From Exiguobacterium sp. s146 (GTDB lineage Bacteria > Bacillota > Bacilli > Exiguobacteriales > Exiguobacteriaceae), in NCBI RefSeq assembly GCF_018618415.1, contig NZ_JACSMA010000001.1:558001-622000 (forward strand): a stretch of DNA of 64,000 nt, written 5' to 3'. The notes beneath the pieces are model-generated. The model searched no databases and was not told where the DNA came from. It worked only from the letters and a program-made list of their open reading frames with translations. The translations under genes and the position numbers were made by a program. How positions within the stretch are numbered: position 1 is the stretch's first letter; each line of letters starts with the position of its first letter. Below are positions 46,031 through 63,592 of this stretch, one piece after another.

Positions 46031-46146
46031 GGAAACGCAAAAACGTTACCAACTAGTACAAGGTGAGGGGCCGGCCTAAACCTTGTATGCTCGGACAAAT
46101 GGATTTGGAAGAGCGGAAAAACTCAAACCTATGGAGGGAAATTACA
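46031..46146 (+). promoter_or_regulatory. Structured hag leader with GGA motifs (candidate CsrA target)
   Basis: TACAAGGT (46057-46064) and ACCTTGTA (46080-46087) form a perfect 8-bp stem with an AGG/CCT inner pairing. GGA occurs at 46031, 46093, 46101, 46107, 46115, 46133 and 46137; the last two are the ribosome site. CsrA binding is inferred from the known B. subtilis hag control and the nearby fliW-csrA genes. Confidence 0.75.
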
Positions 46147-46968
46147 ATGATTATTAACCACAACCTTAATTCGATGAACGCACACCGTAACATGAACATT
46201 AACACAGCACAAACAGGAAAAGCGATGGAGAAATTATCGTCAGGTCTTCGCATCAACCGTGCTGGAGACGACGCGGCTGGTCTTGCAATTTCTGAAAAAA
46301 TGCGCGGACAGATTCGCGGTTTGGATCAAGCATCACGTAACTCACAAGATGCCATTTCATTGATTCAAACAGCTGAAGGTGCATTGAACGAGACTCACTC
46401 AATTCTTCAACGTATGCGTGAACTTGCAGTTCAATCAAGTTCTGACACAAATACTGGTGATGACCGTTCTGAAATTCAAAAAGAATTCGTAGAGTTGAAA
46501 AATGAAGTTGACCGTATCTCAACTCAAACAGAGTTTAACACTAAAAAATTGATCAATGGTAGCCTCGCTACAGCTTCATTGAGCTTCCAAATTGGAGCAA
46601 ATAAAGACCAAACGTTAGAGTTGACAATTGCCAACATGGGAGCTACAGCATTAACAATCTCAGGAATTAACTTAGGATCAACTTCTGCACTTTCAACTGC
46701 AGCTATCGAAACAATTGATACTGCAATCAAAGCGGTTTCTCAAGAGCGTTCTAAACTTGGTGCTAACCAAAACCGTCTTGAACACACAATTAACAACTTA
46801 AGTGTTGGTGCGGAAAACCTTCAAGCAGCTGAATCACGTATCCGTGATGTAGATATGGCGAAAGAAATGATGAACTTCACGAAGAACAACATTTTGAATC
46901 AAGCTGCACAAGCTATGATGTCGCAATCAAATCAACAGCCTCAAGCAGTGCTTCAATTGCTTCGTTAA
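46147..46968 (+). CDS. hag: Flagellin Hag (main filament protein)
   Basis: 273 residues. The N-terminal D0/D1 (MIINHNLNSMNAHRNMNINT, EKLSSGLRINRAGDDAAGLA) and C-terminal D1/D0 (LEHTINNLSVGAENLQAAES, SQSNQQPQAVLQLLR) are complete. The middle (about 135-190) is a short variable part rich in Ser/Thr, plausible for O-glycosylation by the two genes downstream. The ATG at 46147 follows GGAGGGA; the frame extends back to 46063 through the leader. Codons are more A/T-rich than in the flgK-csrA operon. Confidence 0.96.
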   Translation: MIINHNLNSMNAHRNMNINTAQTGKAMEKLSSGLRINRAGDDAAGLAISEKMRGQIRGLDQASRNSQDAISLIQTAEGALNETHSILQRMRELAVQSSSDTNTGDDRSEIQKEFVELKNEVDRISTQTEFNTKKLINGSLATASLSFQIGANKDQTLELTIANMGATALTISGINLGSTSALSTAAIETIDTAIKAVSQERSKLGANQNRLEHTINNLSVGAENLQAAESRIRDVDMAKEMMNFTKNNILNQAAQAMMSQSNQQPQAVLQLLR

Positions 46969-46981
46969 GGTTAATTATCTA

Positions 46982-47022
46982 AAAATAGACATCATTCAGA
47001 AATGAATGATGTCTATTTTTTT
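46982..47022 (+). terminator. Strong terminator after hag
   Basis: A 17-bp stem (AAAATAGACATCATTCA with its complement) around GAAA, followed by T8. The glycosyltransferase ribosome site begins immediately after it. Confidence 0.95.
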
Positions 47023-47037
47023 TAAAAGGTGGATACA

Positions 47038-48567
47038 ATGAATAAATTATCAGCAGTCATAATCGTAAAAAATGAAGAGAAGGTAATTCGGAGATGCTTG
47101 GAATCAATTAAAGACTTAGTGGATGAAATAGTAATTGTTGATACAGGATCAACTGACCAAACTGTACAAATTTCTAGAGAATATACAGATGATGTTTATT
47201 TCTTTCAGTGGTGTGATGATTTTTCAGCAGCAAGAAACTTTGGAAAAGAAAATGCGAAGAATACATTTATTTTAAACATAGATGCTGATGAATATATAGA
47301 TGTATCAAAAATATCTGAATATAAAGAATGGATTCAAAAAAAAATTCATATCAATAAAGCCTATGTAACTAAAATTCACAATTTTACCGATGATTCAAAA
47401 GTTGTAGAACACATAGCAGTTAGAATCGCCTCCAGTAATTTAGAATATACTGGAGCTGTCCATGAAGAAATAATTACAAGCGATGTAGGAATCTCTCCAA
47501 TTGAACTTTATCATACTGGATATCTAGAAAAAACTCGAAAAGAGAAACGAAAATCTGAAAGAAACTTAAAATTATTAAAGGAAAAACTTAAAAATTCAAA
47601 TCAAAAAATTGATCATTATTATTTAGCAAAAGAGTATTTATCAATAGATAATTTAGAAATGGCGAAAAAAGAACTTATAAATGCATTGTCTGATAAAAAA
47701 TATTACGACCAACTTTGGGTTCCATTTGCTTGGACAACATTACTAGATATTTTAATAGTTGAAAAGGATTATAATAACTTGTTAATTATTAGTTCTGATT
47801 TAACTGAAGGTTATCCGGACAGTCCTGAGTATGCATTTTACAACGGATTGAGTTTGTTGTTTGTTGGAGAATTGGTGAAATCTAACCATAAACTCATGAA
47901 CTCGTTGGAGAAAATTGAAGGATCATTTATTGGAAAAGATTTATTGTATGAAAAAATATTATCTTTATTGTGGAAATACAACTGTGCATTTGAAGAATAC
48001 GAAACAGCTATTGAAATTTTGTATACTTTATCTAGCAGGTATGGAACGTTCAACCATAGACATATTTCTCTTTTAGCTGGAATGTTAGGTAGGTTCCCGG
48101 ATATTGCAAAACATTATATTAATATTAGTGATGATTTTTTAAGAAGAAGTATTTTGAGGGAACTATTAGTGCAGGAAAATTATCATTTAGGAAAACTATT
48201 TTTTAATGAACATACACAAGATATTTGTGAATATAAAAAATGGAGAAAATCAAACTTTTTAAAATATTCCGAATTAACTTTCACGGATGTATTTAAAAAT
48301 ATCATGTTTGGAAATTTTGAAAATATAATCGATAATAACAATAATCTATTAGATGAGATTGATAATTCAAATTCTTTTCTTTTTATGGCATACCCTTTTA
48401 AAAACAAAATAAATAACGTGAAAAATTTAGAATTGACTTTAGAATCGTTAGAGCATTCAGATATTTATTTTGATTTATATATCTGTTATCAATATATGAA
48501 GATAGTGCACGAAAAGAATGGACTAGACGGACTTCATAATCTGATAGTTAAAAATCTAAAAGTTTAG
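47038..48567 (+). CDS. Family-2 glycosyltransferase with C-terminal helical repeats
   Basis: 509 residues. The GT-A domain (about 1-180) begins LSAVIIVKNEEKVIRRCLES, with IVDTGSTD (35-40), FSAARNFG and the DxD metal site DADE (82-85). The remaining 300 residues are helical and TPR-like. This layout occurs in flagellin and spore-surface glycosyltransferases. The ATG at 47038 follows AAGGTGG; a GTG at 47029 lies inside that site. The DNA is strongly A/T-rich with AAA/ATT/GAA codons, unlike the surrounding genes, which suggests transfer. It most likely glycosylates flagellin, judged from position. Confidence 0.88.
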   Translation: MNKLSAVIIVKNEEKVIRRCLESIKDLVDEIVIVDTGSTDQTVQISREYTDDVYFFQWCDDFSAARNFGKENAKNTFILNIDADEYIDVSKISEYKEWIQKKIHINKAYVTKIHNFTDDSKVVEHIAVRIASSNLEYTGAVHEEIITSDVGISPIELYHTGYLEKTRKEKRKSERNLKLLKEKLKNSNQKIDHYYLAKEYLSIDNLEMAKKELINALSDKKYYDQLWVPFAWTTLLDILIVEKDYNNLLIISSDLTEGYPDSPEYAFYNGLSLLFVGELVKSNHKLMNSLEKIEGSFIGKDLLYEKILSLLWKYNCAFEEYETAIEILYTLSSRYGTFNHRHISLLAGMLGRFPDIAKHYINISDDFLRRSILRELLVQENYHLGKLFFNEHTQDICEYKKWRKSNFLKYSELTFTDVFKNIMFGNFENIIDNNNNLLDEIDNSNSFLFMAYPFKNKINNVKNLELTLESLEHSDIYFDLYICYQYMKIVHEKNGLDGLHNLIVKNLKV

Positions 48568-48592
48568 AGTCGAGAAAGAGGGCTATTAATTA

Positions 48593-50950
48593 ATGGAAGC
48601 TGAAATTGATACGCTAAAAAATGAATTGGAACAACATCTTGAATTACTAATTGAAAATAATGAATTTCTTAAAGCAGAAAAATTGATTGATGAGTTTGAG
48701 CTTCTGTTTCCGAATGATTCTTTAGTTTACTGTGCAAGAGGTATTATCTGTTTTAATAAAAAAGAATATAATAGCGCTCAGTTCCATTTTGAGACTGGGT
48801 TAAATATAGATTCTAATAATATCGATCTTTTATACAATTTAGCCTATCTAAATGAAAATGTTGAGAACTATATCTCTGCTTATAGAATTTATAAAAAAGC
48901 AAAAAAAATAAACACTGGGAAAAAATTTGAGTTCTTACTTGCTGAAAAAGTAAATACACTTGAAAAATATCAAAGTGTTATCGAATATATTAACAGAAAA
49001 AAAGTCTTATTTATTGATTATATATTTCCACCATTAGCAGGTTCAGGAGTTCAAAGAGCTTTAAAGTTTATTAAATACTGTAGAGACTTTAATTATGAAC
49101 CTATTGTTGTTACTACATCAAATCATGTTTACTACCCTACGGACGCTACTCTTCTAAAAGAAATTCCCAATGAAGTTGAAGTGATTTATATTGATGAGTC
49201 GAATGTGCTAACTAGTGAAAAATTAAATGAATTATTCGATATGTACGCAAAGGTTTTGAAAAACGACTTAGAAATTCTAAAAGAATTATTAAATTCACTT
49301 AGTAACTCCAAAGAAGACATTACAAATTATCTCATTCCTGATATTCACATTTTATTTGCAAATGAGATTATTAGGATACTGCCTGAGATATTAGATATAA
49401 AAGATATCGATTTAATATATTCTACCTCTGGCCCGTACTCCTCGCATATTGCTGCACTTTTATTAAAGCAAAGGTTTAAATTACCTTGGGTAGCAGACTT
49501 TAGGGATGAGTGGACTAATAATGCCTATTTAGAAAATACAGATAAATCGGATTTATTATTTAGTACTCTTGAAAAAATGGAAAAAAGTATTTTAGAAAAT
49601 GCAGACCATATCATTACAACAACAGTTGAAGCGAAAGATAATTATATAGTTGATTTTTCGGTAAATCCTTCTAGGATTACGACAATATTTAATGGATACG
49701 ACGAAAGTGATTTTATAAGTTCTGATACAAAAAATGCAACTAATACTAAATTTAGAATGATTCATAACGGGAGTTTTTATATGAATAGAACTCCGCTGAG
49801 CATCTTTAAAGCAATTAATTTGTTGGTTAAAAATCAAAAAATCAACATCAAAGAAATTGAAATGATATTTACTTCTGAAAATCATAATTTAGAAAATTGG
49901 CAACAATTAGTGGAAAGAATGGGATTAAGTGAAATAATTCAATACACTGGATACTTATCTCACCCTGATAGTATTGAAATTTCTTCAAATGCTAATTTGT
50001 TACTTTTAATAGTTGGTGACACACCTAAGTGTAAAAATGTTATACCAGGTAAACTATTTGAATATTTAAAACTTGATGCACCTATTGTAGCTATATCTCC
50101 TTCGAATAGCGCAGTAGAGAATGTTCTTAACAACACAAATAGAGGTCTCAATTTCGAATGCGGTGATGAATTAATATTGGCTGATTTTATATATGAAAAT
50201 TATCTTGCTTGGAAAACCGGTAAGGTTGTCAGTAATCAAGGAATTCAAGATGAAATTGAGAAGTTTACGAGAAAAAACTTAACAAGACAATTGTGTGAAA
50301 TATTTAACTATGTTACTGAGCAAAGGAATAATATTACGAGTGAAGAATATACAATTCCGGTTAACAAAGAAGAAGATAAAAATTTCTATGATTCTCTTTT
50401 CAGTGACGGCGGATGGGATCAAACATATTTCAAACATTATTCTGATACTCATTACTTTCCTATTTGGGAAAAGGCATTTAGCTTAATTAAAGGGAAGGGG
50501 AAAGACCTAAAAATATTAGAAATAGGTTGCGGTCCAGGTCAATTTGCCCAGCTATTATTCGAAAGAAAAGTTACAGATTATCAAGGATTTGATTTTAGTG
50601 ACAAAGCTATTGAAATGGCAAAGCAAACAAATAAAATGCATCACGAAAAATTTCATGTGGGCGATGCATTTGAAACTAAAGTCTTTGATCATTATATGTA
50701 CAATCTAGTGATTATCTTCGAAGTTCTTGAACATATTGAGGATGATATTGCAATTTTAGATAAAATCAAAGAGGACACAACTATTTTATTCTCTGTTCCA
50801 AATTTTGACTCACCCGGACATGTAAGATGGTTTAATTCAATTTTTGATATTTACGAAAGATACAGACTTATTTTAGATATCAAATCTATTAGTATTCATA
50901 AGCTAGCCGGAGAAAATAAAATCTATTTAGTGAAAGCTAATAAAAAATGA
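48593..50950 (+). CDS. TPR - GT4 glycosyltransferase - SAM methyltransferase fusion
   Basis: 785 residues in three parts. Residues about 1-125 are TPR-like helices (FNKKEYNSAQFHFETGLN). About 136-570 is a GT-B/GT4 transferase (VLFIDYIFPPLAGSGVQRAL, LPWVADFRDEWTNNAY, IFNGYDESDF, KLFEYLKLDAPIVAISP). About 610-785 is a class I SAM methyltransferase (ILEIGCGPGQFAQLL at about 640, IIFEVLEHIEDD). One chain could add and then methylate a sugar on flagellin. It follows the GT2 gene by 25 bases in the same A/T-rich DNA. The closing segment SVPNFDSPGHVRWFN is typical of O-antigen methyltransferases. Confidence 0.88.
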   Translation: MEAEIDTLKNELEQHLELLIENNEFLKAEKLIDEFELLFPNDSLVYCARGIICFNKKEYNSAQFHFETGLNIDSNNIDLLYNLAYLNENVENYISAYRIYKKAKKINTGKKFEFLLAEKVNTLEKYQSVIEYINRKKVLFIDYIFPPLAGSGVQRALKFIKYCRDFNYEPIVVTTSNHVYYPTDATLLKEIPNEVEVIYIDESNVLTSEKLNELFDMYAKVLKNDLEILKELLNSLSNSKEDITNYLIPDIHILFANEIIRILPEILDIKDIDLIYSTSGPYSSHIAALLLKQRFKLPWVADFRDEWTNNAYLENTDKSDLLFSTLEKMEKSILENADHIITTTVEAKDNYIVDFSVNPSRITTIFNGYDESDFISSDTKNATNTKFRMIHNGSFYMNRTPLSIFKAINLLVKNQKINIKEIEMIFTSENHNLENWQQLVERMGLSEIIQYTGYLSHPDSIEISSNANLLLLIVGDTPKCKNVIPGKLFEYLKLDAPIVAISPSNSAVENVLNNTNRGLNFECGDELILADFIYENYLAWKTGKVVSNQGIQDEIEKFTRKNLTRQLCEIFNYVTEQRNNITSEEYTIPVNKEEDKNFYDSLFSDGGWDQTYFKHYSDTHYFPIWEKAFSLIKGKGKDLKILEIGCGPGQFAQLLFERKVTDYQGFDFSDKAIEMAKQTNKMHHEKFHVGDAFETKVFDHYMYNLVIIFEVLEHIEDDIAILDKIKEDTTILFSVPNFDSPGHVRWFNSIFDIYERYRLILDIKSISIHKLAGENKIYLVKANKK

Positions 50951-50955
50951 TGTTT

Positions 50956-50981
50956 TAAATAAATATAACATCATCCGATAA
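50956..50981 (+). promoter_or_regulatory. Sigma-D type promoter of the flaG-fliD-fliS-fliT operon
   Basis: TAAA (50956-50959), 14-base spacer, TCCGATAA (50974-50981). It starts right after the stop codon of the fusion gene. Confidence 0.75.
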
Positions 50982-51017
50982 TAAGGGAGATAAAACATTA
51001 TTAAAGGAGTTTTCAAG

Positions 51018-51374
51018 ATGAGTTTATTTAACTCTGAAATCCGCCTTCACCTACCTCCCTCTGTCTTACCATACGAACAAACGAAAAATGTGTTCGTCGA
51101 AGCGAATCAAAAAGCGCTCGCAGACGAAGGGATTGTCATTCTTCCGACGCCTCAACACGTTACAAAACTAGAGGCGGCTGTCAAGAAGGCGAATCTTGTA
51201 CTAGAGCAACAACGTACCGGTTTAAAGTTCATGAAACATGAGAAATTGAATGACTTCTATATTCAAATCGTAGATACGAACAACGAAGTCATCCGGGAGA
51301 TTCCAAGTAAGAAGTCGCTCGATTTTTTTGCGGCATTTATGGAATTCAATCAACTCTTCGATGAACGTATTTAA
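51018..51374 (+). CDS. flaG: FlaG/YvyC flagellar protein
   Basis: 118 residues. The conserved FlaG C-terminal part KFMKHEKLNDFYIQIVDTNN, EVIREIPSKKSLDFFAAF is present, with a poorly conserved N-terminus. FlaG family members influence filament length; the exact role is unclear. AAAGGAG precedes the ATG, and it is first in the operon with fliD, fliS and fliT, as yvyC is in B. subtilis. Confidence 0.92.
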   Translation: MSLFNSEIRLHLPPSVLPYEQTKNVFVEANQKALADEGIVILPTPQHVTKLEAAVKKANLVLEQQRTGLKFMKHEKLNDFYIQIVDTNNEVIREIPSKKSLDFFAAFMEFNQLFDERI

Positions 51375-51386
51375 AGGAGGTATACG

Positions 51387-53060
51387 ATGACGTCACCAAT
51401 CCGATTTGGCGGACTCGCCAGTGGAATTGATACCGATTCAATTATCAAACAATTGATGCAAGCTGAACGTATGCCAGTTGATAAACTTGAACAACAAAAA
51501 CAGACGACCGAATGGAAACGAGATGCGTATCGCGAAATCAACCGTTCGCTCATGACCCTTCGAAACAGTGCGGTCGATCTCATGTTCAGTCGTAATTTTT
51601 ACGCCAAAACGTCTAGTTCATCTGATGAATCACGTGTCTCTGTCGTAGCGGGACCTTCTAGTGGGAACACGGCAATTCGTATCGAATCTGTCAGTCAGCT
51701 CGCAACAGCGGCTACCCAAGTCGTTGAGCCTAAAGATAAAAATGGAGTTGCAGTAACGAAGGCAACAAAAGTTGCTGATATGAACTTACAATCGGCCATA
51801 CAAGAAGTGAAGTTGTCTACTGATACAAAGGAATGGACGCTTTCTCCTAAGCCAAAAGCCGGAGCGACTATTTCGTTGAAAGACGCAACAAATACACCTG
51901 TTGATGCCTCAAGTTATACTTATGATGAAGCGACTGGGAAAGTAACGATGAATGATGGCTCGGATATACCGACTGGCACAACGGCCACTTACACATCTGG
52001 TTATCAGATTCAAATCCGTTCCGTTGAAGGCGGAGACTTTCAGACAATTAAGGTGGCGGAAGACGCCACAATGGAGAACCTAGTTACTGCTTTGAATGGA
52101 AAAGAATCAGGAGTGTCAGCATTTTTTGAACCGATTTCTGGTAAATTGTCAATTACTCAAAAGCAGACCGGTGAAAATGCAATCATAGAATTTGACGCAA
52201 CAACGAAGGCTGCTTTTGGTGTCGCTCCTGGAGATTTACCGAAAACAGGAACAGATGCAAGCTTCATAGTGAACGGTATTCCGATGACACAGAGCTCAAA
52301 CACGGTTACGATTGATAACATGACCGTCACGTTAAAATCGGAATTTGCATCTGGTGCGGTGACGCTTTCTGCTGCAACAGACACACAAAAAATCTTTAAT
52401 AATATTAAAGGATTTGTCGATAAGTATAACGAGACGATTGATCTCATGAATAAGAAAGTCCGTGAAGAACGGTTCCGTTCGTTTGCACCGCTCACACAAG
52501 CCCAACGCGATGAACTTTCTGATGATGAGATTAAGAAGTGGGAAGAAAAAGCGATGAGTGGGATGCTGCGTGGCGATACGATTGTCCGCAGTGCGATGGA
52601 CACGATGCGAGGCAAGTGGTCAAGTGCGACATCGAGTACTAACGACGATGAGATGAAGCAACTCTTCCAAATCGGGCTCTCAACCGGTGCTGATTTCACC
52701 AATGGTGGGAAAATTGAACTAAACGAAGAAAAGCTTAAAGCGGCCATTGAAAAGGATCCGGATCAAGTATACCAACTCTTCACTAATGCGGAGAGCGGAC
52801 TACTTCCCCAAATTCGTGATGCAGCGACTAACTCGCGATCGTCCATTACTCGGATTGCTGGTGCTGATGGTGCCGGTGCTCCGACGTATTCGATGGGGCG
52901 TGAGATGACGCAAATCGATACACGGATTAAGCGTTTGAACGATTTATTAGTCGATAAAGAAAACGCCTATTACCGTCGCTTTGCAGCGATGGAGACGGCG
53001 ATGAACCAGGCGAACTCACAAGCCGCCTCATTGCAACAGTTCTTAGGCGGAGGCATGTAA
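51387..53060 (+). CDS. fliD: Filament cap protein FliD (HAP2)
   Basis: 557 residues. The N-terminal FGGLASGIDTDSIIKQLMQAER and the C-terminal REMTQIDTRIKRLNDLLVDK with EAMNQANSQ-type coiled coil are FliD hallmarks. The centre (about 90-330) is a variable exposed domain with more A/T-rich codons. FliD caps the growing filament and folds exported flagellin. AAAGGAGG precedes the ATG; fliS follows after 15 bases. Confidence 0.95.
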   Translation: MTSPIRFGGLASGIDTDSIIKQLMQAERMPVDKLEQQKQTTEWKRDAYREINRSLMTLRNSAVDLMFSRNFYAKTSSSSDESRVSVVAGPSSGNTAIRIESVSQLATAATQVVEPKDKNGVAVTKATKVADMNLQSAIQEVKLSTDTKEWTLSPKPKAGATISLKDATNTPVDASSYTYDEATGKVTMNDGSDIPTGTTATYTSGYQIQIRSVEGGDFQTIKVAEDATMENLVTALNGKESGVSAFFEPISGKLSITQKQTGENAIIEFDATTKAAFGVAPGDLPKTGTDASFIVNGIPMTQSSNTVTIDNMTVTLKSEFASGAVTLSAATDTQKIFNNIKGFVDKYNETIDLMNKKVREERFRSFAPLTQAQRDELSDDEIKKWEEKAMSGMLRGDTIVRSAMDTMRGKWSSATSSTNDDEMKQLFQIGLSTGADFTNGGKIELNEEKLKAAIEKDPDQVYQLFTNAESGLLPQIRDAATNSRSSITRIAGADGAGAPTYSMGREMTQIDTRIKRLNDLLVDKENAYYRRFAAMETAMNQANSQAASLQQFLGGGM

Positions 53061-53075
53061 GAGGAGGAATTTTAA

Positions 53076-53450
53076 ATGGTAGCCAACCCATATGCAGCAT
53101 ATCAGAACAATGCGGTCACGACCGCGAACCCACAAGAACTGACGCTCATGCTTTACGACGGGGCGCTCAAGTTCATGCGCCTCGCCAAACTCGCTATCGA
53201 GCAAGGAAATCCAGACTTAAAGAACACGAACATTCAGAAGACGCAAGCCATCTTCCAAGAGCTTCGTCTGACACTCAATAAAAATATTAAAATCTCGTCG
53301 AATTTAGACTCGCTCTATGAGTACATGTGGCGCCGCCTTGTCGATGCGAACGTCAAGAACGACACGACGATTCTCGATGAAGTCCTCGACTTCACGACTG
53401 AGCTCCGCGACACGTGGAAGGAAGCGATGAAACTCGCGAAGCAGGAATGA
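53076..53450 (+). CDS. fliS: Flagellin chaperone FliS
   Basis: 124 residues. NPYAAYQNNAVTTANPQELT, LMLYDGALKFMRLAK, IFQELRLTLNKN and SLYEYMWRRLVDANVKND match FliS throughout. It binds the C-terminal helix of flagellin before export. The gene returns to GC-rich codons. GAGGAGGAA precedes the ATG; its stop overlaps the fliT start. A divergent paralogue lies at 60666. Confidence 0.95.
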   Translation: MVANPYAAYQNNAVTTANPQELTLMLYDGALKFMRLAKLAIEQGNPDLKNTNIQKTQAIFQELRLTLNKNIKISSNLDSLYEYMWRRLVDANVKNDTTILDEVLDFTTELRDTWKEAMKLAKQE

Positions 53451-53800
53451 GACCCATCGATGAGATTATCTTCAAAACGCAACGATTAAAGGATTTACTT
53501 GAAAAAGTACCAGAAGAACCGACGTATGACACATGGATGGACCAAATCCATGAATTGCTCGACGACCGTGAGCAACTGCTCGCGGCTCATGGACCGGACC
53601 TGAAGGATGCTGACCAGACAGTGATTCGCCAACTCGTCGACGACAGCCAGCATATTACGCGGTTAATCGAGGCGGAACACCAACGGCTCGGGATGACGCT
53701 CGGGACGGCTCGTCAGGAACGAAAAACGGTCAAGTCATACGTCGACCCATATGAAGACGTCGATTCGAACTTCTCAGGATTGTTCGATCAACAGACATAA
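53447..53800 (+). CDS. fliT: FliT-like flagellar chaperone
   Basis: 117 residues, helical (IIFKTQRLKDLLEKVPEEPT, IHELLDDREQLLAA, LVDDSQHITRLIEAEHQRLG). The position after fliS and the small helical-hairpin pattern indicate FliT, the FliD chaperone, though the family is weakly conserved. The ATG at 53447 overlaps the fliS stop (ATGA); the frame runs back to 53414 inside fliS. It is the last gene of the operon. Confidence 0.83.
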   Translation: MRPIDEIIFKTQRLKDLLEKVPEEPTYDTWMDQIHELLDDREQLLAAHGPDLKDADQTVIRQLVDDSQHITRLIEAEHQRLGMTLGTARQERKTVKSYVDPYEDVDSNFSGLFDQQT

Positions 53801-53882: not shown

Positions 53883-53942
53883 TATCAATGGGATGATTTG
53901 GATATGAATTATCATTAATGGAATGTTGTGGAGGAATTTCTT

Positions 53943-55532
53943 ATGATTATCAAAAATAACAGCAATGCAAATCAAGCGTTACGTCAATCACAAATAAATA
54001 CAGGTCAAGCCGGTAAAGCGATGCAGAAACTGTCTTCTGGATTAAGAATTAATCAAGCAGCTGATGATGCGGCAGGATTAGCAATCTCTGAGAAGATGAG
54101 AGCTCAGATTCGTGGGCTAGATCAAGCTGCTCAAAACGCTGTGGATGGAATCAGTTTAATTCAAACTGGAGAAGGTGGATTGAACGAATCTCATTCAATT
54201 CTACAACGTATGCGTGAACTTGCTGTTCAGTCTGCTAATGATACAAATAACTTAGCTGACCGCGGAGCGATTCAAAAAGAGTTTAATGAGATGACCACAG
54301 AGTTAAATCGGATCGGGAATCAGACTTCCTTTAATACTAAAACTGTTCTGAACGGATTAAATGGTAAAGGAGGAGAGGCGTTAGTCACCCATAGTATTCC
54401 TGGAACCCCTGGTGCGATTCGGGGAATCTATACAGTTGGTATCAATACGACATCATTGAATATCAATGATACGATTCAAGTTGATGGACATACGTTTTTA
54501 AAATCTTCAAATGACCCGTTGTTATCGGGTGAATTCAATGATTTATCGACACTAGTCACTGCGATACGTGCTGTACCTGATTTGAACACTCGATACACGG
54601 TACAGGTGATAGGTACTCCTACTCCGAACGGATTACGGTTCGAGCATAAAACAGGGGAAGAGTCTTGGTCTCAACCTAATATCGGTACTACCAAATCACC
54701 TGATCCATATATCAGCTCCCCAATAAATACAGTTAGACCCGGAAGAGGGGGAAGTCAACCTATTCCAGGGGAGTTCGAAGTTTATGAACAAGATATTATG
54801 CCCTTGAAACCAGGAGAGACAATTAAGGTAGAATGGATTGGGAAGTCACCGTTCAACAATCGTGAAATAGAATTGACGTTTATTCCAGATGCACCTATTC
54901 AATCGGGTGGGAATGTGAGAAGTTTGGCAGAACTAATGAGTGAAGTTAGTGGTGCCGCATCACCACATATGACACATAATTCGTCGTCAAACCCTATAAA
55001 ATTTGAAGAAACTTATACTTACGAAGGTACATATCATCAGTTGAAATTGACGCGAGGAGGTAAAGAAATAACCCTTCAAATTGGCGCAAATTCTGGTCAA
55101 TCTATGCAGTTAGACCTTAATGATATGAGAGCCGCACGAATTGGGTTGACCTCTACGGTAAAGGGAGAAGAGGGTTTCACATCTGAACGTGTCGTTAAAA
55201 ATCGTGAAGGAAATCGAGACGCTGAGTATGCATTAGACATTACTACCCAGTCTGGTGCCAGTCAGGCAATTAGCAAAATTGACCAAGCTACCCAACTCGT
55301 GTCCTCTGAACGATCAAAGATGGGGTCATGGCAAAATCGCTTAGATCATGTAGTGGCAAATGTTTCGATATCGGCTGAGAACTTGCAGGCTGCCGAATCC
55401 CGAATCCGAGATGTCGATATGGCAAAAGAAATGATGGCATTTACGAAATCAAACATTTTAGGCCAAGCTTCTCAGGCAATGATTGCCCAAGCCAATAAAC
55501 AGCCAGAGGCCATCCTTCAACTGCTTCGCTAA
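53943..55532 (+). CDS. Second flagellin with a large central insertion
   Basis: 529 residues, about 250 longer than Hag. The terminal domains are close to Hag (MQKLSSGLRINQAADDAAGL; VSISAENLQAAESRIRDVDM; QPEAILQLLR). Between LNGLNG (about 140) and LQIGANSGQSM (about 378) lies a beta-rich insert (TIQVDGHTFLKS, YTVQVIGTPTPN, IPGEFEVYEQDI, ETIKVEWIGKSP) that would form D2/D3 domains on the filament surface. No HExxH protease motif is present. GTGGAGGA precedes the ATG. Codons are A/T-rich. It could be a minor flagellin, an adhesive one, or one used under other conditions. Confidence 0.9.
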   Translation: MIIKNNSNANQALRQSQINTGQAGKAMQKLSSGLRINQAADDAAGLAISEKMRAQIRGLDQAAQNAVDGISLIQTGEGGLNESHSILQRMRELAVQSANDTNNLADRGAIQKEFNEMTTELNRIGNQTSFNTKTVLNGLNGKGGEALVTHSIPGTPGAIRGIYTVGINTTSLNINDTIQVDGHTFLKSSNDPLLSGEFNDLSTLVTAIRAVPDLNTRYTVQVIGTPTPNGLRFEHKTGEESWSQPNIGTTKSPDPYISSPINTVRPGRGGSQPIPGEFEVYEQDIMPLKPGETIKVEWIGKSPFNNREIELTFIPDAPIQSGGNVRSLAELMSEVSGAASPHMTHNSSSNPIKFEETYTYEGTYHQLKLTRGGKEITLQIGANSGQSMQLDLNDMRAARIGLTSTVKGEEGFTSERVVKNREGNRDAEYALDITTQSGASQAISKIDQATQLVSSERSKMGSWQNRLDHVVANVSISAENLQAAESRIRDVDMAKEMMAFTKSNILGQASQAMIAQANKQPEAILQLLR

Positions 55533-56338: not shown

Positions 56339-56486
56339 ATAAGTCGAAGTCAAGGTCGTTTCCATGACCTTGACTTTTATTTGTTCAGGGTAATAACCTT
56401 CAACTTTTTCTTACACCGGTCAGGCTAGACAATCCAGTATGCTCATCTTATCAACCACCACTCACACGAAAAGGGAGAGAGTTAAA

Positions 56487-57114
56487 ATGAACATGAAACG
56501 ATACGGATTGTTGCTAGCCTTACCATTGACGCTACTTGTCGGATGCGGGGAAGCCGATGAACTGAAGACGACCGCGACCGACACAGAGGAAGTCGTCGAG
56601 GCGGAGAAGACGGAAGAACCGGTTTCGGAATCCACAACAGATGCGGAAGTACAGGAGAGTGAGCTAGGCTCGAACCAGTTACATGAAGAACAAGGCGCTC
56701 GATATCAAAGAGACGATTGGCTCCGTCAACTTCGCCATCGATAAAGTGCAGACGTCACGGCTCACCGTCAACGAAGCGTATCGCGATTCGTTCGATGGAC
56801 AAGAAGAAGTGACGGTCGTCGCGATGAATGTCATCGTCGAAAACACGATTGACGACACGATTAGTTTCCATCCGAATCAGGCGACGCTCGTGACGAACAC
56901 GGGTGAACAAGTGTCAGCCGACTTATGGTTCTCGGATGATGTCGGCGGGGAGTTCCTCGGCAAAGTGAAGAAGGAAGGGAACGTCCTCTTCTTCGTCAAA
57001 GCGATGCCGGAAAAGCTAGGGGACGTGAAAGTCGTCATCGATGGACCTTCTGATGCGAACTATCAGTCAATCGGGGAATCCCGTTACGAATATACAATCA
57101 ACGTCGAGAAATAA
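56487..57114 (+). pseudogene. Frameshifted lipoprotein (DUF4352-like), copy 1
   Basis: The first frame (56487-56744) gives a lipoprotein signal (MNMKRYGLLLALPLTLLVGC) and an acidic linker up to about GSNQL. It then diverges from copy 2. From about 56680 another frame (to 57114) continues the match: MKNKALDIKETIGSVNFAID, ISFHPNQATLVTNTGEQVSA, GGEFLGKVKKEG. Comparison with copy 2 shows that two bases are missing (or one is extra) just before the second ATG (56683). So the gene is broken, is frameshifted in translation, or the sequence has an error. A separately translated 143-residue C-terminal piece is possible but has no good ribosome site. Confidence 0.8.
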
Positions 57115-57117
57115 GCA

Positions 57118-57152
57118 ATGGCCGCTCCAGGGAACTGGTGCGGCCGTTTTGT
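57118..57152 (+). terminator. Terminator after lipoprotein copy 1
   Basis: TGGCCGCTCCAG and CTGGTGCGGCCG pair imperfectly around GGAA and are followed by T4. Confidence 0.7.
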
Positions 57153-57262
57153 GTCCTGACTAATACCTAAAAAATTTTACGTTTCACTCGAATTCCCTTC
57201 TAAAAATGGGGAATAAGATTTATATAAGTTGGAAAAGTCTAGAGGTAAAGGAGAGGATTGGA

Positions 57263-57904
57263 TTGAAGTCGTACGGATTCATCTTAGCCATTCCCTTGCT
57301 CATGTTAGTCGGATGTGGAGACGCGGGGTCTTCATCGACTACTACCGAACCTACCAGTCAAAGTGAAAGCGTTCCGTCGACAGACAGCCAAGAAAAACCG
57401 CAAGAAACAGAAACAGTGAAGGAGGAAGAATTTGAAGTTCAAGAAGATGAGGTTGGCCGCAGTCAAATTTATATGAAGAATCGGAATCTTGGGATTGAAG
57501 AAACGATTGGGCCAATCATCTTTCAAATCGATAAGGTGCAAACGCTTCGTCTAGAAGTCGCTTCTGATTATCGATTCATGTTCGATGATCAAAAAGAAGT
57601 GACCATCGTCTCGTTCAATGTCATTGTCGAAAATACGAGTGACGAGACGGTCAGTTTTCATCCGAACCAAGCCAGGCTTGTGACAAACACAGGCGAACAG
57701 GTTAATGCTGACATCGTCATTTCAGAGGATGTAGGCGGAGAGTTTTTAGGGAAAGTGAAAAAAGAAGGTGGGGTACTGTTCCATGTCGAATCGATGCCGG
57801 AAGAGCTGACAGAAGTCCGATTCGTCGTCGAAGGCCCTTATGATGATCAATATCGTCCGATTGCCGAGGAGCGATATGAATACACAATCGATGTCACCAA
57901 ATAA
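57263..57904 (+). CDS. Lipoprotein with DUF4352-like domain, copy 2
   Basis: 213 residues from a TTG start behind AAAGGAGAGG; the frame extends to an ATG at 57206 without a ribosome site. The signal peptide ends at the lipobox LVGC (Cys about 16). A Ser/Thr/Glu-rich linker (to about 65) leads to a C-terminal immunoglobulin-like domain (EVTIVSFNVIVENTSDETVS, FHPNQARLVTNTGEQ), like DUF4352/telomeric-repeat-like domains of Gram-positive lipoproteins. It is intact and paralogous to the frameshifted copy upstream. Function unknown. Confidence 0.82.
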   Translation: MKSYGFILAIPLLMLVGCGDAGSSSTTTEPTSQSESVPSTDSQEKPQETETVKEEEFEVQEDEVGRSQIYMKNRNLGIEETIGPIIFQIDKVQTLRLEVASDYRFMFDDQKEVTIVSFNVIVENTSDETVSFHPNQARLVTNTGEQVNADIVISEDVGGEFLGKVKKEGGVLFHVESMPEELTEVRFVVEGPYDDQYRPIAEERYEYTIDVTK

Positions 57905-58689: not shown

Positions 58690-58722
58690 GTGAAAAGGGA
58701 GAGCCGCGGCTCTCCCTTTTAC
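58690..58722 (-). terminator. Terminator of the accessory flagellar operon
   Basis: AAAAGGGAGAGCC and GGCTCTCCCTTTT form a 13-bp stem overlapping the end of the DUF2225 gene, with a U run on the minus strand. Confidence 0.9.
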
Positions 58723-59384
58723 GCGTGTTCGATTCTAAAGTCTTCCCAATGCGACCGGGCTTGTGTGCGGATCCGCTCCGACACTTCCTTGCTACCGAGC
58801 AAGATGCCGTACCAACGCCTCGCGTCCTCATACAGACCGAGCGCGGCCGACAAGTCGGCGATCCGCAGCATGAGCTGGTCGTACGGGAGGCCGGTCCGGA
58901 CTTGGTCCGTGTACGCCTCTTGTACTTCGTTGTATTTGTCGAGCGTCCGTTTCATCCATTCCTTCTCGGACGCCTCATTCCCCGTCAGGCGATACATCCA
59001 GACGAGCCGCATGCCGAGCATGGCGACGACGGACGGCTTCTGGCCGCTCAGTTGGGCCGTCACGACGGCGAACTTGTAGAGCCGGATGACGTGATCGGCC
59101 GAGCGGTCGCCCGCGAGCGCCTCGGCATTGACCCGGTCGAAGTAGCCATTCTCGAGCGCTTCGCGATGCGTCTTTCGCACCTTGTCGAACGAGTCGTGGA
59201 AGACGAGGTGACAATGGCTACAGACGGTCGGCTCATAAAAGTACGGGTTGGCACCGTCGTACGTCGTATACCCGTCCTTCGCAACTTCCTGCGGTCGGAT
59301 ATGACGCGACAAGACACGCGGCGTCTCGCTTTGCTTCAAGCAATACGGACATTTTACTTTTTTCGAAAAGATATGTTCTGCCAT
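58719..59384 (-). CDS. DUF2225 zinc-ribbon/TPR-like protein
   Basis: 221 residues. The N-terminal CPYCLKQSETPRVLS and VCSHCHLVFHD give two Cys pairs of a zinc ribbon. The remaining 160 residues are helical repeats (LRIADLSAALGLYEDARRWY), the DUF2225 layout. The function of the family is unknown. The second of two adjacent ATGs (59384) is better spaced from GAGGTGAG; the first (59387) almost touches it. It is the last gene of a six-gene operon containing flagellar paralogues, and starts about 10 bases after yaaR. Confidence 0.85.
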   Translation of the reverse strand: MAEHIFSKKVKCPYCLKQSETPRVLSRHIRPQEVAKDGYTTYDGANPYFYEPTVCSHCHLVFHDSFDKVRKTHREALENGYFDRVNAEALAGDRSADHVIRLYKFAVVTAQLSGQKPSVVAMLGMRLVWMYRLTGNEASEKEWMKRTLDKYNEVQEAYTDQVRTGLPYDQLMLRIADLSAALGLYEDARRWYGILLGSKEVSERIRTQARSHWEDFRIEHA

Positions 59385-59393
59385 CATCTCACC

Positions 59394-59837
59394 TCACACG
59401 TATACGTTGACGAGCAGGCCACGAATCTCGCCGACCTGGTCGAGGAGCGACAGACGTGATGCTTCGCCCGAGATGACCTGGTCCGTTAGCGCGAGCAGCT
59501 TCTGGTCGACTTGTTCGACAATCTTATAGATTTTGGCGCGACCGCGGCGGTTGAAGCCGCGTTTGTCCTCGAGGCGAAGCGCCGCGTCAACGGCGTCTTT
59601 CATAAAGTCTTTAATGAGCTGTTTATATTCAGCGAGTGACTCGACCGTCTGGCTCTCGGCGAGGAGCTCACCTTTCTCGTGGATGGCCGCGATTTGGCGT
59701 TGGAAGCGCTCGTGCTCGCGGTCCTCACGTTTTTGACCGATGACGTTCTGGAACGATACGCCGGGCTCAGCCTCGGGGCGTTTCGCCTTACCGGCGCCGT
59801 GAAGCGACTGCGTCTCCATGATGCGACGAATGTCCAT
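59394..59837 (-). CDS. yaaR: YaaR-family protein (DUF327)
   Basis: 147 residues. YKQLIKDFMKDAVDAALRLE, FNRRGRAKIYKIVEQVDQKLLALT and ISGEASRLSLLDQVGEIRGLLVNVYV are the DUF327/YaaR pattern. The family is found in Firmicutes and spirochaetes and its role is unknown. Here it sits directly behind a flagellin gene, which hints at a motility link. AAGGAAGGA precedes the ATG. Confidence 0.88.
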   Translation of the reverse strand: MDIRRIMETQSLHGAGKAKRPEAEPGVSFQNVIGQKREDREHERFQRQIAAIHEKGELLAESQTVESLAEYKQLIKDFMKDAVDAALRLEDKRGFNRRGRAKIYKIVEQVDQKLLALTDQVISGEASRLSLLDQVGEIRGLLVNVYV

Positions 59838-59857
59838 AGGATCCGTCCTTCCTTAAG

Positions 59858-60682
59858 TTAGTTCAACAATTGTAGCACGCCTTGCGGCAAGGCGTTCGAC
59901 TGGGCGATCATCGCCATGCCGGATTGGTTCAAGATGTTGAGGCGGGCGAAGTCCATCATCTCGCGCGCCATGTCGGCGTCACGGATGCGTGACTCGGACG
60001 CCGTCAAGTTCTCGGACCCGATCGTCACGACGCTCACGTTCGCCTCGAGCCGGTTCTGGATGGCACCGAGTTTTGAACGTTCGAGTGATACCTTTTGAAT
60101 CGCGGCGTCGAACTTGGCGATGGCGTCATTGGCGCCACCTTGTGTCGTCACGTCTAAGCCGTCGATTCCGAGCGCGCCGGCGCGCATGTCGTCGACGTTC
60201 AAGACGACGCCCTCGCCGCTGCCGGCACCGAGTTGGAAGAAGAGCGTCTCATTGCCGGCGATAAAGTCACCGTTCATGATTTTCTTCGAGTTGAACTCGG
60301 TCGTCTCGGCAATCCGGGTCACTTCATCCGTGAGCGCAGCAATCTCGTCTTGAATCGCCTTGGCGTCATCACCGCTCAGCGTCCCGTTCGACGCTTGGAC
60401 CGACAACTCGCGCATCCGCTGCAGGAGGGCGTGCGTCTCGCTCATCCCGCCTTCAAGCGTCTGGGTGAGCGAGATACCGTCGAGCGTGTTGCGTTCGGCC
60501 ATCGACAACGAGTCGAGCCGGATGCGCATCTTCTCAGAGATGGCGAGTCCGGCCGCGTCGTCGGACGCCTTGTTGATGCGGACCCCGCTCGAGAGGCGGT
60601 CCATCGTCTTCTTCATCGTCGCCTGATTGACGGTGAGCGATGAGTAGGCTTTCAGTGCCTGGACGTTATTGGTAATTTTCAT
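59858..60682 (-). CDS. Third flagellin (divergent, GC-rich)
   Basis: 274 residues, the same size as Hag but with GC-rich codons and clear divergence. It has D0/D1 regions KITNNVQALKAYSSLTVNQA and DRLSSGVRINKASDDAAGLA. The C-terminus is ESRIRDADMAREMMDFARLN, ending VLQLLN. It is a minimal D0/D1 flagellin without an insert. GGAGGAAA precedes the ATG. It overlaps the preceding fliS-like gene by 17 bases, so the putative chaperone and its client are coupled. It lacks a sigma-D type promoter of its own. Confidence 0.92.
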   Translation of the reverse strand: MKITNNVQALKAYSSLTVNQATMKKTMDRLSSGVRINKASDDAAGLAISEKMRIRLDSLSMAERNTLDGISLTQTLEGGMSETHALLQRMRELSVQASNGTLSGDDAKAIQDEIAALTDEVTRIAETTEFNSKKIMNGDFIAGNETLFFQLGAGSGEGVVLNVDDMRAGALGIDGLDVTTQGGANDAIAKFDAAIQKVSLERSKLGAIQNRLEANVSVVTIGSENLTASESRIRDADMAREMMDFARLNILNQSGMAMIAQSNALPQGVLQLLN

Positions 60683-61046
60683 AGCGGTTTCCTCCTGCCG
60701 GTACGGGTTTCAGACGGGCATTCTCGATCGCCTCGCCCCATGTCTGGTCGAGCTCGGTCGCGAGACCGTGAAGCTCCTCGATTTTATCCATGTCTTGCTC
60801 GATCAGCGCCTCGAGGCTCGATTTCGCCATATAGAGGTAAAGCTCATCGAGTTGAGCTGAAATAATGCCACCGCCGTCGTGGAGGCCTTGGTGAAGCTTC
60901 GCGAGCAGTTCACGCGCTTGGCGCAAATGGCGGTTGCGTTCGGCGATGGTCGCCGTCCTGGCTTGTTCATAATGATAGACGAGCGCGTGGAGCATCGCTT
61001 GGGTCAGCTCTTCCGGGCTCATTTCGTATAGTCGGTTCGGGTTCAT
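60666..61046 (-). CDS. Divergent FliS-like flagellin chaperone
   Basis: 126 residues with the FliS helix pattern in diverged form: MSPEELTQAMLHALVYHYEQ, LLAKLHQGLHDGGGIISAQL, DELYLYMAKSSLEALIEQD and LDQTWGEAIENA. The typical NPYxxY start is replaced by NPNRLYE. It lies immediately upstream of the third flagellin, with a 17-base overlap, and probably serves it. It overlaps ylqH by 4 bases. Confidence 0.82.
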   Translation of the reverse strand: MNPNRLYEMSPEELTQAMLHALVYHYEQARTATIAERNRHLRQARELLAKLHQGLHDGGGIISAQLDELYLYMAKSSLEALIEQDMDKIEELHGLATELDQTWGEAIENARLKPVPAGGNRYENYQ

Positions 61047-61333
61047 GATGGGTCTCCTTTGATGGTGTCGAGTTCTTCAATCAGTAATAGCACTTCGGCC
61101 ATGACGTCATACAGTTGGGGCGGAATCGCGTCCCCGAGGTCGAGGTCGAGCAGGTGGCCAAGGAGCGAATGGTCATGCTCGATGGCGACGCCGCGCGCTC
61201 TCGCCTCATCTAAGATTTTATCGGCGACGGCGCCGGTGCCGCGGGCGACGATGACCGGGGAGCGGTCAATCGTCTCGTCATAGCGGACGACGGCGGCCGT
61301 CTTGCGCTTTGTCAAATCCATGCGTTGATACAT
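61043..61333 (-). CDS. ylqH: YlqH, FlhB C-terminal domain homologue
   Basis: 96 residues. KTAAVVRYDETIDRSPVIVA, ADKILDEARARGVAIEHDHS, LGHLLDLDLGDAIPPQLYDVMAEV is the cytoplasmic domain of FlhB/EscU without the membrane part. The NPTH autocleavage motif of FlhB is absent; the sequence starts after that point. Such FlhX/YlqH proteins can replace the C-terminal piece of FlhB in the export gate. GGAGGCTGTT precedes the ATG. It follows ylqG by 9 bases, as in B. subtilis. Confidence 0.9.
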   Translation of the reverse strand: MYQRMDLTKRKTAAVVRYDETIDRSPVIVARGTGAVADKILDEARARGVAIEHDHSLLGHLLDLDLGDAIPPQLYDVMAEVLLLIEELDTIKGDPS

Positions 61334-61342
61334 AACAGCCTC

Positions 61343-63007
61343 CTAGATGCGGAAATCATAGCCGGTCGTCTCGAGCGTCGGGCGCTCGGTCTCCGGTCGG
61401 TCAGACTTCGTCAATGGGCGGAACTGGGTCGTCACACTCTTGTAGCCGATCGCCTCGAGCGTCGTCTCGATCTTGCCGAGTAGGGGACGGGCGAGTGCCT
61501 CGACGGTCGGGTCATCGTGTTCGAGCGTGAGCCGGAGATTCCGGTCGATCGCTTCGAGCTTGACGCCGATCTCGCCGAGCCGTGGCGTCTCGAGCCGGAT
61601 ATAGAGCACACTGTTCTCCCAGTCGACGACGTCCCCAGCCTCCCGGTTTTGGATATGGACGTGGATGCCGGTGTCGATCTCTTGGACTTTCGCCGGCAAG
61701 GCGAGGATGAGCTGGTGGAGCTGCCCGCCGTCGAGCCGATTCAACGTCTGTTGGACTTGGAAGAACGAGGCGAGCCGTTGCGCCTCGGGTGTCGCCGCGT
61801 CGGCTTTCATCGACAGCGTCGACGCCTGGACGCGCTGCGCCGTCTCTTGGATGACGCGGCCCGATAGGTTCGGGTCGACTTTGAACGGCGTGACGCGCGG
61901 CAGTTCGCCGGCACGGGTCGCCTGATGCGGGATGTATTCGAGACGGACGTGATTCGGCACGTACCGGAACTCGTTCAAGCTGGCGCGCACTTCTTTGATG
62001 AGCGCGGCGCTCTCGGCCGGTTTCGTCGACAGCAACCCGAGGGCGACGTCGAGCTTCGCTGTCATCGCGACGAGCGCCTTCTCTTGGGTCGCGCTCGTAT
62101 GTAACAAGGCGTCCGTCTTTTGGATGAGTTGCGTCAAGCGGGTCGATACCGTCTCGAGCGCGGGCCGGGCCTGATGCGGGTTCGTCTCGACGAGGGTGGC
62201 GACTTGGCCGAGTTGTTTCGTCACCGTCACTTGTTCGCTTCGGAACGTGTTCGTCACGGTCGCGAGATGCGTCGTCACTTCTTTGACGAGCACCGGGCGT
62301 CCGAGGGCAGGCGGTAACGCCTCGCGCGGTTCGATGCGCACAGGGCGCGGCTCCGGCAACTCGTTGATGAGCCGGTCGACCGTCTCCGGTGTCGGTGTCA
62401 TACGCTCGCTGACCGGGCGCGACAGGTTGACGTGCTCGATGAACCGTTCTTTCTGCGGGTATGGCGCGTCGGGCGCCGGTAGTTTAAGTTGTTGTCTCGC
62501 TTCATCTAATGACGCGATGGCGAGATCGCGCGCGACGTCACGCGGGAGCGTCGGCGCCTCGACTGTCTTCAGCCAAAGGACGGCGTCGCGCATGTCGCCT
62601 TTGAAGACGGTCTCGAGCAGTCGCACCGTGTCCTCGTTCATCGGCAACCGTCCCGATTGGAGCAGACGGCTGACGGCGCTGCGGACCTCGGGCGGGAGCG
62701 ATGCGAGCAACGCCTGAATCTTCGTATCGAGTTTCACCGGTTGACCGGTTGACGTGTCCGGCGTCTCGCTCTCGGGCTTGACGACGATTGTCGCGATGAG
62801 CTGGCCGTCCTGTTCGGCGAGCGTCAGTTGAAACGGGTTCGTCTTCGGGAGCCCGCCCTCGAACGTGACCTCGACGTGCTCGCCGTTGATTTTGACGATC
62901 CCGGTGTCGGGTCCGGTCTGTTTGACGAGCTCGGCTTTATAGATGCGGTTCGTCTGGATGCCGGCTGTGACCGCGACGGCCGCGGTCATGGGGGCTTGGA
63001 TTTGCAT
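61343..63007 (-). CDS. ylqG: YlqG-like protein with FliK-type C-terminal domain
   Basis: 554 residues. There is no signal or membrane helix. The N-terminal 60 residues are beta-rich and the middle is Pro/Thr/Glu-rich and helical. The C-terminal 120 residues (IHVHIQNREAGDVVDWENSV, LYIRLETPRLGEIGVKLEAI, LRLTLEHDDPTVEALARPLL) resemble the hook-length-control domain of FliK. The pairing with ylqH matches B. subtilis. The ATG at 63007 follows GAGGTGA; the frame begins at 63025. It is the first gene of the accessory operon. A role as a secreted ruler or substrate-switch factor is inference. Confidence 0.8.
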   Translation of the reverse strand: MQIQAPMTAAVAVTAGIQTNRIYKAELVKQTGPDTGIVKINGEHVEVTFEGGLPKTNPFQLTLAEQDGQLIATIVVKPESETPDTSTGQPVKLDTKIQALLASLPPEVRSAVSRLLQSGRLPMNEDTVRLLETVFKGDMRDAVLWLKTVEAPTLPRDVARDLAIASLDEARQQLKLPAPDAPYPQKERFIEHVNLSRPVSERMTPTPETVDRLINELPEPRPVRIEPREALPPALGRPVLVKEVTTHLATVTNTFRSEQVTVTKQLGQVATLVETNPHQARPALETVSTRLTQLIQKTDALLHTSATQEKALVAMTAKLDVALGLLSTKPAESAALIKEVRASLNEFRYVPNHVRLEYIPHQATRAGELPRVTPFKVDPNLSGRVIQETAQRVQASTLSMKADAATPEAQRLASFFQVQQTLNRLDGGQLHQLILALPAKVQEIDTGIHVHIQNREAGDVVDWENSVLYIRLETPRLGEIGVKLEAIDRNLRLTLEHDDPTVEALARPLLGKIETTLEAIGYKSVTTQFRPLTKSDRPETERPTLETTGYDFRI

Positions 63008-63066
63008 AGTTGTCACCTCGACCAATATATCGACCTCTTTTTCAAAAAGTGAAGTGAAACCGGCAG

Positions 63067-63096
63067 AAAAAAACCTCCCGTCGAATCGACGGAAGG
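63067..63096 (-). terminator. Terminator of comK
   Basis: On the minus strand CCTTCCGTCG pairs with CGACGGGAGG (one G-U) followed by seven U. Confidence 0.88.
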
Positions 63097-63097: not shown

Positions 63098-63592
63098 TCA
63101 AGAGTTGAGCGTGGCACTCTGGTTTAATTGTTGGAACCGCGCGACGAGTTCGCCCGTCGCTTTCAACTGATTGCGGAGGACGTATGAGGTCGCATTCGTG
63201 GTGATCCGGTGACCGTTCTGGGTGACGACCAAGCCTTTCGACTCGATCGGGTCGCTCGTGATGTCACGGATGTGCGACCAGGCGTACCATTCACATTCAG
63301 GCCGTTTCGGGGACATCGTCGGGAAGAAGACGAGCCCGGACGTCGGTTCGATGACGACCGGCACTTTGCCTTTGATTCCGGCGACGCGCTTGGCGACAAA
63401 GATGCGCTCCTCAATCGAACTGCTGTACTGGCGGCAGGAGAGCTGCAAGAGCTGGTAGGGCCGGAGCGGGGTCTTGATCTCGGAGCCGTCCTCGAGAATG
63501 ACTCGTGATTCCCAAGCTGTCTCGTAACATGGCATAATAGCGACCGTTCGCTTCGTAATACGGTACTTTTCCTCGGAATGGTAGGGGCGCAT
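63098..63592 (-). CDS. comK: ComK-family competence transcription factor, short form
   Basis: 164 residues. LRPYQLLQLSCRQYSSSIEE, VPVVIEPTSGLVFFPTMSPK, RPECEWYAWSHI and LRNQLKATGELVARF match ComK, which activates the DNA-uptake genes, including comFA. The B. subtilis protein is about 192 residues and ends in a tail carrying the MecA-binding FMLYPK; that tail is missing here. The ATG at 63592 has AAAAGGAC upstream at a rather long spacing. No clear AAAA-N5-TTTT K-box was seen in front of comFA in this window. It is divergent from the cold-shock gene. Confidence 0.88.
   Translation of the reverse strand: MRPYHSEEKYRITKRTVAIMPCYETAWESRVILEDGSEIKTPLRPYQLLQLSCRQYSSSIEERIFVAKRVAGIKGKVPVVIEPTSGLVFFPTMSPKRPECEWYAWSHIRDITSDPIESKGLVVTQNGHRITTNATSYVLRNQLKATGELVARFQQLNQSATLNS

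Follow-up and report, generated by a model that had tools for sequence, protein, structure and literature searches.

The DNA analysed here, a 64,000-nucleotide stretch of the genome of Exiguobacterium sp. s146 (the window), contains a six-gene flagellar operon that encodes, in order of transcription, YlqG2, YlqH2, FliS2, Fla3, YaaR and a DUF2225 protein. The first five genes form a core that, as judged from the genomes compared, is not specific to the Exiguobacteriaceae, and that places a FliK-like protein and a free FlhB C-domain beside a FliS-type chaperone and a flagellin. We lean, with modest confidence, towards the interpretation that this is a dedicated switch-plus-chaperone module for the export of an accessory flagellin. 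A sequence-only reading of the window had proposed a dedicated module joining an export switch to a chaperone-substrate pair, and the proposal finds strong support in the gene order kept within and beyond the family, in the tree groups formed by FliS2 and YlqH2, and in a promoter of the late type. The module is larger than that reading described. Its anatomy is firm; its mechanism, by which it would change export specificity or build a segment of the filament, we infer.

All six open reading frames named in the sequence-only reading were recovered on the minus strand, with the positions and families it had given them (Table 1). The packing is as tight as it had claimed (overlaps, or gaps of at most about 20 bases), with junctions that measure, from 5' to 3', +9, -4, -17, +20 and +6 bases. 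For YlqG2, the ATG at 63007 is preferred as the start codon over a TTG at 63025, which lies immediately after the promoter -10 element. The set has a sigma-D-like promoter and a terminator at both ends, and we regard it as a genuine operon.

Table 1. Genes and border elements of the accessory flagellar operon (window coordinates; aa, amino acids).
Feature	Position	Strand	Details
YlqG2, FliK/YlqG-like putative ruler and specificity-switch protein	61343..63007	-	554 aa, C-terminus GYDFRI
YlqH2, free FlhB C-domain	61043..61333	-	96 aa, PF01312 3.9e-11, without NPTH cleavage site
FliS2, divergent FliS-family chaperone	60666..61046	-	PF02561 1.5e-15; 17-base overlap with Fla3
Fla3, flagellin	59858..60682	-	274 aa, N- and C-terminal domains both complete
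YaaR (DUF327)	59394..59837	-	PF03885 6e-37; sole copy in the genome
DUF2225 protein, zinc ribbon and tetratricopeptide repeat (TPR)-like helices	58719..59387	-	PF09986 4e-33
Sigma-D-like promoter TTCA-N15-GTCGATAT	63027..63053	-	between comK and YlqG2
comK terminator, parting comK from the operon	63074..63096	-	10-bp stem followed by T7
Operon terminator, perfect hairpin after DUF2225	58690..58720	-	-21.6 kcal/mol, z -6.1

The sequence-only reading had suggested conservation of gene order in other genomes as a check. No scattering of the genes was encountered among relatives: the order comK-ylqG2-ylqH2-fliS2-fla3-yaaR-DUF2225 is identical in 24 of 24 genomes of the family, which represent two genera, and all of them show the FliS2/Fla3 overlap, of either 17 or 4 bases. 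Identity between the genera ranges from approximately 35% for YlqG2, the lowest, to approximately 73% for YlqH2, the highest. The ratio of nonsynonymous to synonymous substitutions (dN/dS) lies between 0 and 0.15 in each of the six genes, indicating purifying selection. Because of this identical order and these low ratios, the arrangement is judged not to be a product of chance.

The promoter element GTCGATAT is kept upstream of YlqG2 in all other relatives of the same genus, and the site in the sister genus reads TCAA-N15-GCCGATAT. Fla1, the flgM operon and flaG, which are likewise late genes of this window, are preceded by TAAA-N15-TCCGATA or a near-match. We take the site before YlqG2 to be a promoter of the sigma-D type whose -35 element is weak in Exiguobacterium. 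In other genera, sigma-D-like sites with a score of at least 10 were found upstream of 36 of 77 YlqG2 genes, as against 0.7 expected from shuffled sequence.

The core is distributed well outside the family. When 300 Bacilli genomes, sampled evenly, were searched with the FlhB_C profile, at least three copies of this domain were detected in 22 genomes outside the Exiguobacteriaceae, of which 17 also encode a second FliS (Fisher 6e-17). Fourteen loci from these genomes were examined: six consist of YlqG2-YlqH2-FliS2-flagellin followed by YaaR, six, all from one family, have the same four genes without YaaR after them, and two contain YlqG2-YlqH2-YaaR and miss the chaperone-flagellin pair. A scan of named genomes gave 281 relatives of YlqH2, and the exact order YlqG2-YlqH2-FliS2-Fla-YaaR is found at 68 of the best 80, a figure that is no unbiased rate because the 80 were picked by YlqH2 similarity. 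In 75 of 76 loci, the gene for YlqG2 overlaps that for YlqH2. The module occurs in Geobacillus, Anoxybacillus and alkaliphilic Bacillaceae, among the carriers being Cytobacillus, Evansella, Halalkalibacter, Alkalihalophilus pseudofirmus OF4 and Halalkalibacterium halodurans, with near variants in Heliorestis and one uncultured Brevibacillus; a curiosity confined to Exiguobacterium is thereby ruled out. The Heliorestis locus (L178:7918-12796), outside the class Bacilli, has two tandem flagellins ahead of YaaR. In Anoxybacillus and Geobacillus, the module is located between comF and yvyF-flgM-flgN-flgK-flgL; the comF genes precede it there because the usual order is comF-yvyF-flgM. As for the six-gene module of the sequence-only reading, its five-gene core stands, and DUF2225 proves to be an addition seen in this operon within the Exiguobacteriaceae only.

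The names ylqG and ylqH, which the sequence-only reading had applied to the first two genes, have to be modified, since the window pair consists of paralogues. Another contig of the same genome contains the standard rnhB-ylqG-ylqH-sucC locus, FliK and a full FlhB with its NPTH site. Given that the genome already has FliK and FlhB as well as YlqG and YlqH, the window pair is identified as its third FliK-like/FlhB_C set; simple relocation of ylqG and ylqH is ruled out, the standard pair being still in place between rnhB and sucC. YlqH2 is homologous to the cytoplasmic C-domain of FlhB without the membrane part (PF01312 residues 262-333), and scores 77 bits against TIGR00789, below the cut-off of 117. 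It shares 35% identity with the YlqH and 35% with the FlhB of its own genome, compared with 49% with a YlqH2 from Geobacillus. In a quick maximum-likelihood tree, which carries a long-branch warning, the YlqH2 rows split from YlqH with a support of 99. The NPTH autocleavage site present in FlhB was found in none of the 76 YlqH2 sequences checked. In one module (L113:5847-8584), YlqG2 is flanked on both sides by a copy of YlqH2.

The module and the rnhB-ylqG-ylqH-sucC locus, which encodes the FliK-like and FlhB-like pair of Bacillus, share a homologous switch domain, a similar C-terminal tail and a free FlhB C-domain. The latter locus differs in its position, in its lack of a chaperone or flagellin, in its separate tree groups and in YlqG proteins of 281 to approximately 525 residues devoid of repeats, and it is co-resident with the module in the same genome. 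A FlhB C-domain standing alone is also the point of likeness with HP1575/FlhX of the Epsilonproteobacteria. Judging from the title of Wand et al. 2006, HP1575 of Helicobacter pylori reportedly serves as a spare part for FlhB; we know of no pairing of HP1575/FlhX with a ruler, a chaperone or a flagellin. YlqG2 and YlqH2 might likewise stand in for components of the ordinary hook switch or modify it, and lie near a flagellin only because all are late genes. The replacement of a deleted domain by the free one in H. pylori, as that title has it, and the retention of the pair in a few genomes that have lost FliS2 and the flagellin agree with such a role. We consider it improbable, given that FliK-FlhB and YlqG-YlqH are both encoded in this genome already, that the linkage to the chaperone-flagellin pair is highly conserved, and that the hook switch would be over by the time a late promoter came into action.

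YlqG2 displays a conserved C-terminal end and a highly variable centre. The C-terminal domain is tied to YlqG by profile comparison (hhalign 99%, E 6e-20), and 14 of 19 homologous C-terminal regions match Flg_hook of Pfam; the window protein alone gives PF02120 with E=0.009, under the Pfam cut-off. The predicted fold, in which confidence is limited to the switch domain, has PscP-SS, a specificity-switch domain, as its first match and FliK-C as its second. We conclude that YlqG2 carries a FliK-like switch domain of the type III secretion substrate specificity switch (T3S4) type. The protein ends in the motif G-[YFML]-[DN]-x-x-[IV], the glycine of which is present in 80 of 80 loci; the sole sequence that deviates elsewhere in the motif comes from a frame that looks disturbed. 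Canonical YlqG has a similar C-terminal end.

The centre of YlqG2 is rich in Q, A, E and L and nearly free of cysteine. From 554 residues in the window, the length rises to a median of 847 among the 80 loci and to a gap-free maximum of 2,072, which was taken because a frame of 2,222 residues includes unread bases. At least 20 repeated six-residue words were detected in 19 of 79 YlqG2 sequences, mostly within near-identical tandem blocks of approximately 95-115 residues, with nine units of approximately 100 residues in the protein of locus L205; no repeats were found in the 15 canonical YlqG examined. Two YlqG2 proteins from Cytobacillus firmus have ends that are 93-94% identical and lengths of 1,709 and 908 residues, and Anoxybacillus proteins with C-termini at least 89% identical vary from 845 to 1,885. 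Exact lengths are provisional, since draft assemblies may collapse repeats. The length of YlqG2 correlates weakly with that of the module flagellin (rho 0.34, uncorrected for kinship), a correlation that is not used as evidence.

FliS2 belongs to the FliS family by its PF02561 score (57.9 bits for a cut-off of 26.7), and remains below the cut-off of the NCBIfam fliS equivalog in the window (34.8 against 53.75), whereas the FliS2 of locus L110 lies above it. The FliS2 rows stand apart from FliS1 in a quick maximum-likelihood tree with a support of 100. Fla3 contains both helical flagellin domains, the N-terminal (PF00669, 9e-41) and the C-terminal (PF00700, 2e-24). Joint absence of FliS2 and the flagellin is seen in loci L216 and L221; in Fictibacillus gelatini and Brevibacillus borstelensis it goes with retention of YlqG2-YlqH2-YaaR. 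The joint absence supports a chaperone-substrate pairing and, together with adjacency, leads us to propose FliS2 as a putative chaperone of Fla3. The retention of YlqG2-YlqH2-YaaR shows in turn that in those genomes the switch pair must serve some purpose by itself.

Fla3 was termed a third flagellin in the sequence-only reading, in agreement with four Flagellin_N matches in the genome, one of which is FlgL. Nearly all module genomes checked encode at least one further flagellin beyond the module flagellin and FlgL. The module flagellin is therefore usually accessory, and its being the sole filament protein is rejected for nearly all of these genomes. The draft genome of locus L155 has the module flagellin only and also misses FlgL; this draft may be incomplete. 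The main flagellins cluster in the flagellin tree (six rows, support 99) apart from the module flagellins, which are variable in length, with variable and often large central domains. Of the three flagellins of the window, the second (53928-55532) is a large protein of 534 residues, its gene directly preceded by a separate sigma-D-like site, and constitutes the most divergent row of the tree.

Part of the module has very likely been described before in Geobacillus, where flaA1 is flanked by a second fliS, both genes are absent together and phase variation has been suggested (PMC5109656). That locus, with a flagellin and a second fliS between comF and flgM and an 'flhB' named nearby, is very likely the same as the module; the report is concerned with Geobacillus only and with phase variation, and its text mentions neither fliK nor YaaR. 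The phase variation proposed there, the varying lengths of module flagellins, and an effect of salt on the motility of Exiguobacterium and on expression of fliS, the copy being unspecified (PMC6158405), would suit a module that simply provides another flagellin for use under different conditions (surface, salt, temperature or variation), with YlqG2 and YlqH2 as general export helpers and no second ruler or switch. This explanation seems rather unlikely to us: it gives no account of a ruler-type protein and a free FlhB C-domain kept beside the flagellin across genera, and leaves the changes of YlqG2 length through repeats unexplained. A non-motility product, for example a fibre for adhesion or signalling, might also be built or secreted, given the variable, often large central domains and the presence of a main flagellin. 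This appears very improbable, as the window Fla3 is a small flagellin of 274 residues with complete polymerisation domains, no separate export gate is present, and the module of Anoxybacillus and Geobacillus lies inside the comF-yvyF-flgM-flgK-flgL locus.

A dedicated export module could operate as follows, with the switch pair acting on a single shared export gate. The hook would be completed through FliK and FlhB, with release of sigma-D, by which the module would then be transcribed. YlqH2, which resembles the FlhB C-domain after cleavage, would dock on the gate in place of FlhB-CC, or in competition with it, and favour FliS2-Fla3. YlqG2 would be exported as a ruler, and once the tip was beyond its reach, the switch domain and C-terminal tail would act on YlqH2, so that the Fla3 phase would end and the main flagellin would resume. 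In Salmonella, export turns from early to late substrates when FliK drives the removal of the cleaved C-domain of FlhB, on which the final residues of FliK are proposed to act (PMC13344023). The length of the ruler sets that of the hook, at 0.2 nm per residue (PMC6126814). Extrapolated from the Salmonella value (a hook of 55 nm at approximately 405 residues), YlqG2 of the window would reach approximately 85 nm from the gate, and the longest YlqG2 approximately 350-390 nm.

A late-expressed pair, in which a free FlhB C-domain that has no cleavage site and a longer putative ruler stand beside a chaperone and a flagellin, is consistent with a second state of the gate, devoted to Fla3 and ended by YlqG2. 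The stricter version, in which YlqG2 is a second ruler, extended in many species by whole repeat units, that together with YlqH2 performs a second switch after the hook and sets the length of a segment made of the module flagellin, is offered tentatively and is less likely than a dedicated export module. Several observations weigh against the proposed function. A few genomes keep YlqG2-YlqH2-YaaR although FliS2 and the flagellin are missing, the flagellin tree neither shows nor rejects one common origin for the module flagellins (approximately unbiased test, p-AU 0.11), and the YlqG2 of the window is itself free of repeats. Moreover, the cited switch mechanism comes from Salmonella, and the promoter of the window module has a poor -35 element in this genus.

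Flagella are known to have one export-specificity switch, from hook to filament, with one FliK and one FlhB. The widespread occurrence of a longer, often repeat-built putative second ruler, a free FlhB C-domain and a flagellin-chaperone pair suggests that many Bacillales may be able to switch again within the filament; a second switch, if true, would be a new way of controlling flagellum building. A related system is that of Shewanella putrefaciens, in which the order of FlaA and FlaB in one filament is attributed to promoter timing (PMC6299084). There, two flagellins are sequential in one filament, with segment length loosely set and no second switch pair. In a literature search, for which most subscription papers were out of reach, neither the five-gene module nor a second ruler built of repeats was found described. 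The module makes the ordering of several flagellins in one filament directly testable, and the YlqG2 family provides natural length variants of a ruler.

The operon ends in the genes of two proteins without assigned function, YaaR, for which a structure has been solved, and DUF2225, and ties both of them to flagella. Of the 300 Bacilli, 184 have both DUF327 and FliS, 27 FliS alone, 85 neither and 4 DUF327 alone, all four of the latter being fragmented drafts (Fisher 4e-45, uncorrected for kinship). YaaR adjoins tmk-holB in most module-less genomes inspected, and elsewhere occurs in flaG-fliD-fliS-fliT-like-yaaR operons, after the flhA-sigD cluster or by cheA-cheW. Because it co-occurs with FliS and sits in varied flagellar operons without the module, we assign YaaR as a general flagellum-linked protein of Bacilli. 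A YaaR exclusive to the module is ruled out by its location near tmk or in other flagellar operons, and its role, which the sequence-only reading thought would be new here, is not confined to this operon. The YaaR of the H. halodurans module, an orthologue of the window protein, is identical to the protein of the solved structure PDB 2qup (BH1478). DUF2225, whose model shows a zinc ribbon and a set of TPR-like helices, is a candidate flagellum-linked protein, FliS being present in all 124 genomes with a full-length copy among the 300 (uncorrected for kinship). As a core member it is rejected on account of its non-flagellar neighbours elsewhere, usually iron-sulphur or tRNA genes, even though all carriers are flagellated. 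Literature searches turned up nothing specific on a flagellar role of YaaR, DUF2225 or a FliK paralogue.

The neighbourhood of the operon contains further flagellar and other genes. The main late locus (46063-53800) encodes Fla1, a family 2 glycosyltransferase (GT2), a 785-residue glycosyltransferase/methyltransferase/TPR protein, FlaG, FliD, FliS1 and a FliT-like protein, and looks like a flagellin glycosylation island. Immediately upstream of the module in all 24 family genomes lies comK (63098-63592 in the window), the gene of the competence master regulator. Two adjacent, related lipoprotein-like genes span 56439-57904, of which the second (57206-57904) is intact and the first is apparently split by a frameshift (56439-56744 and 56683-57114).

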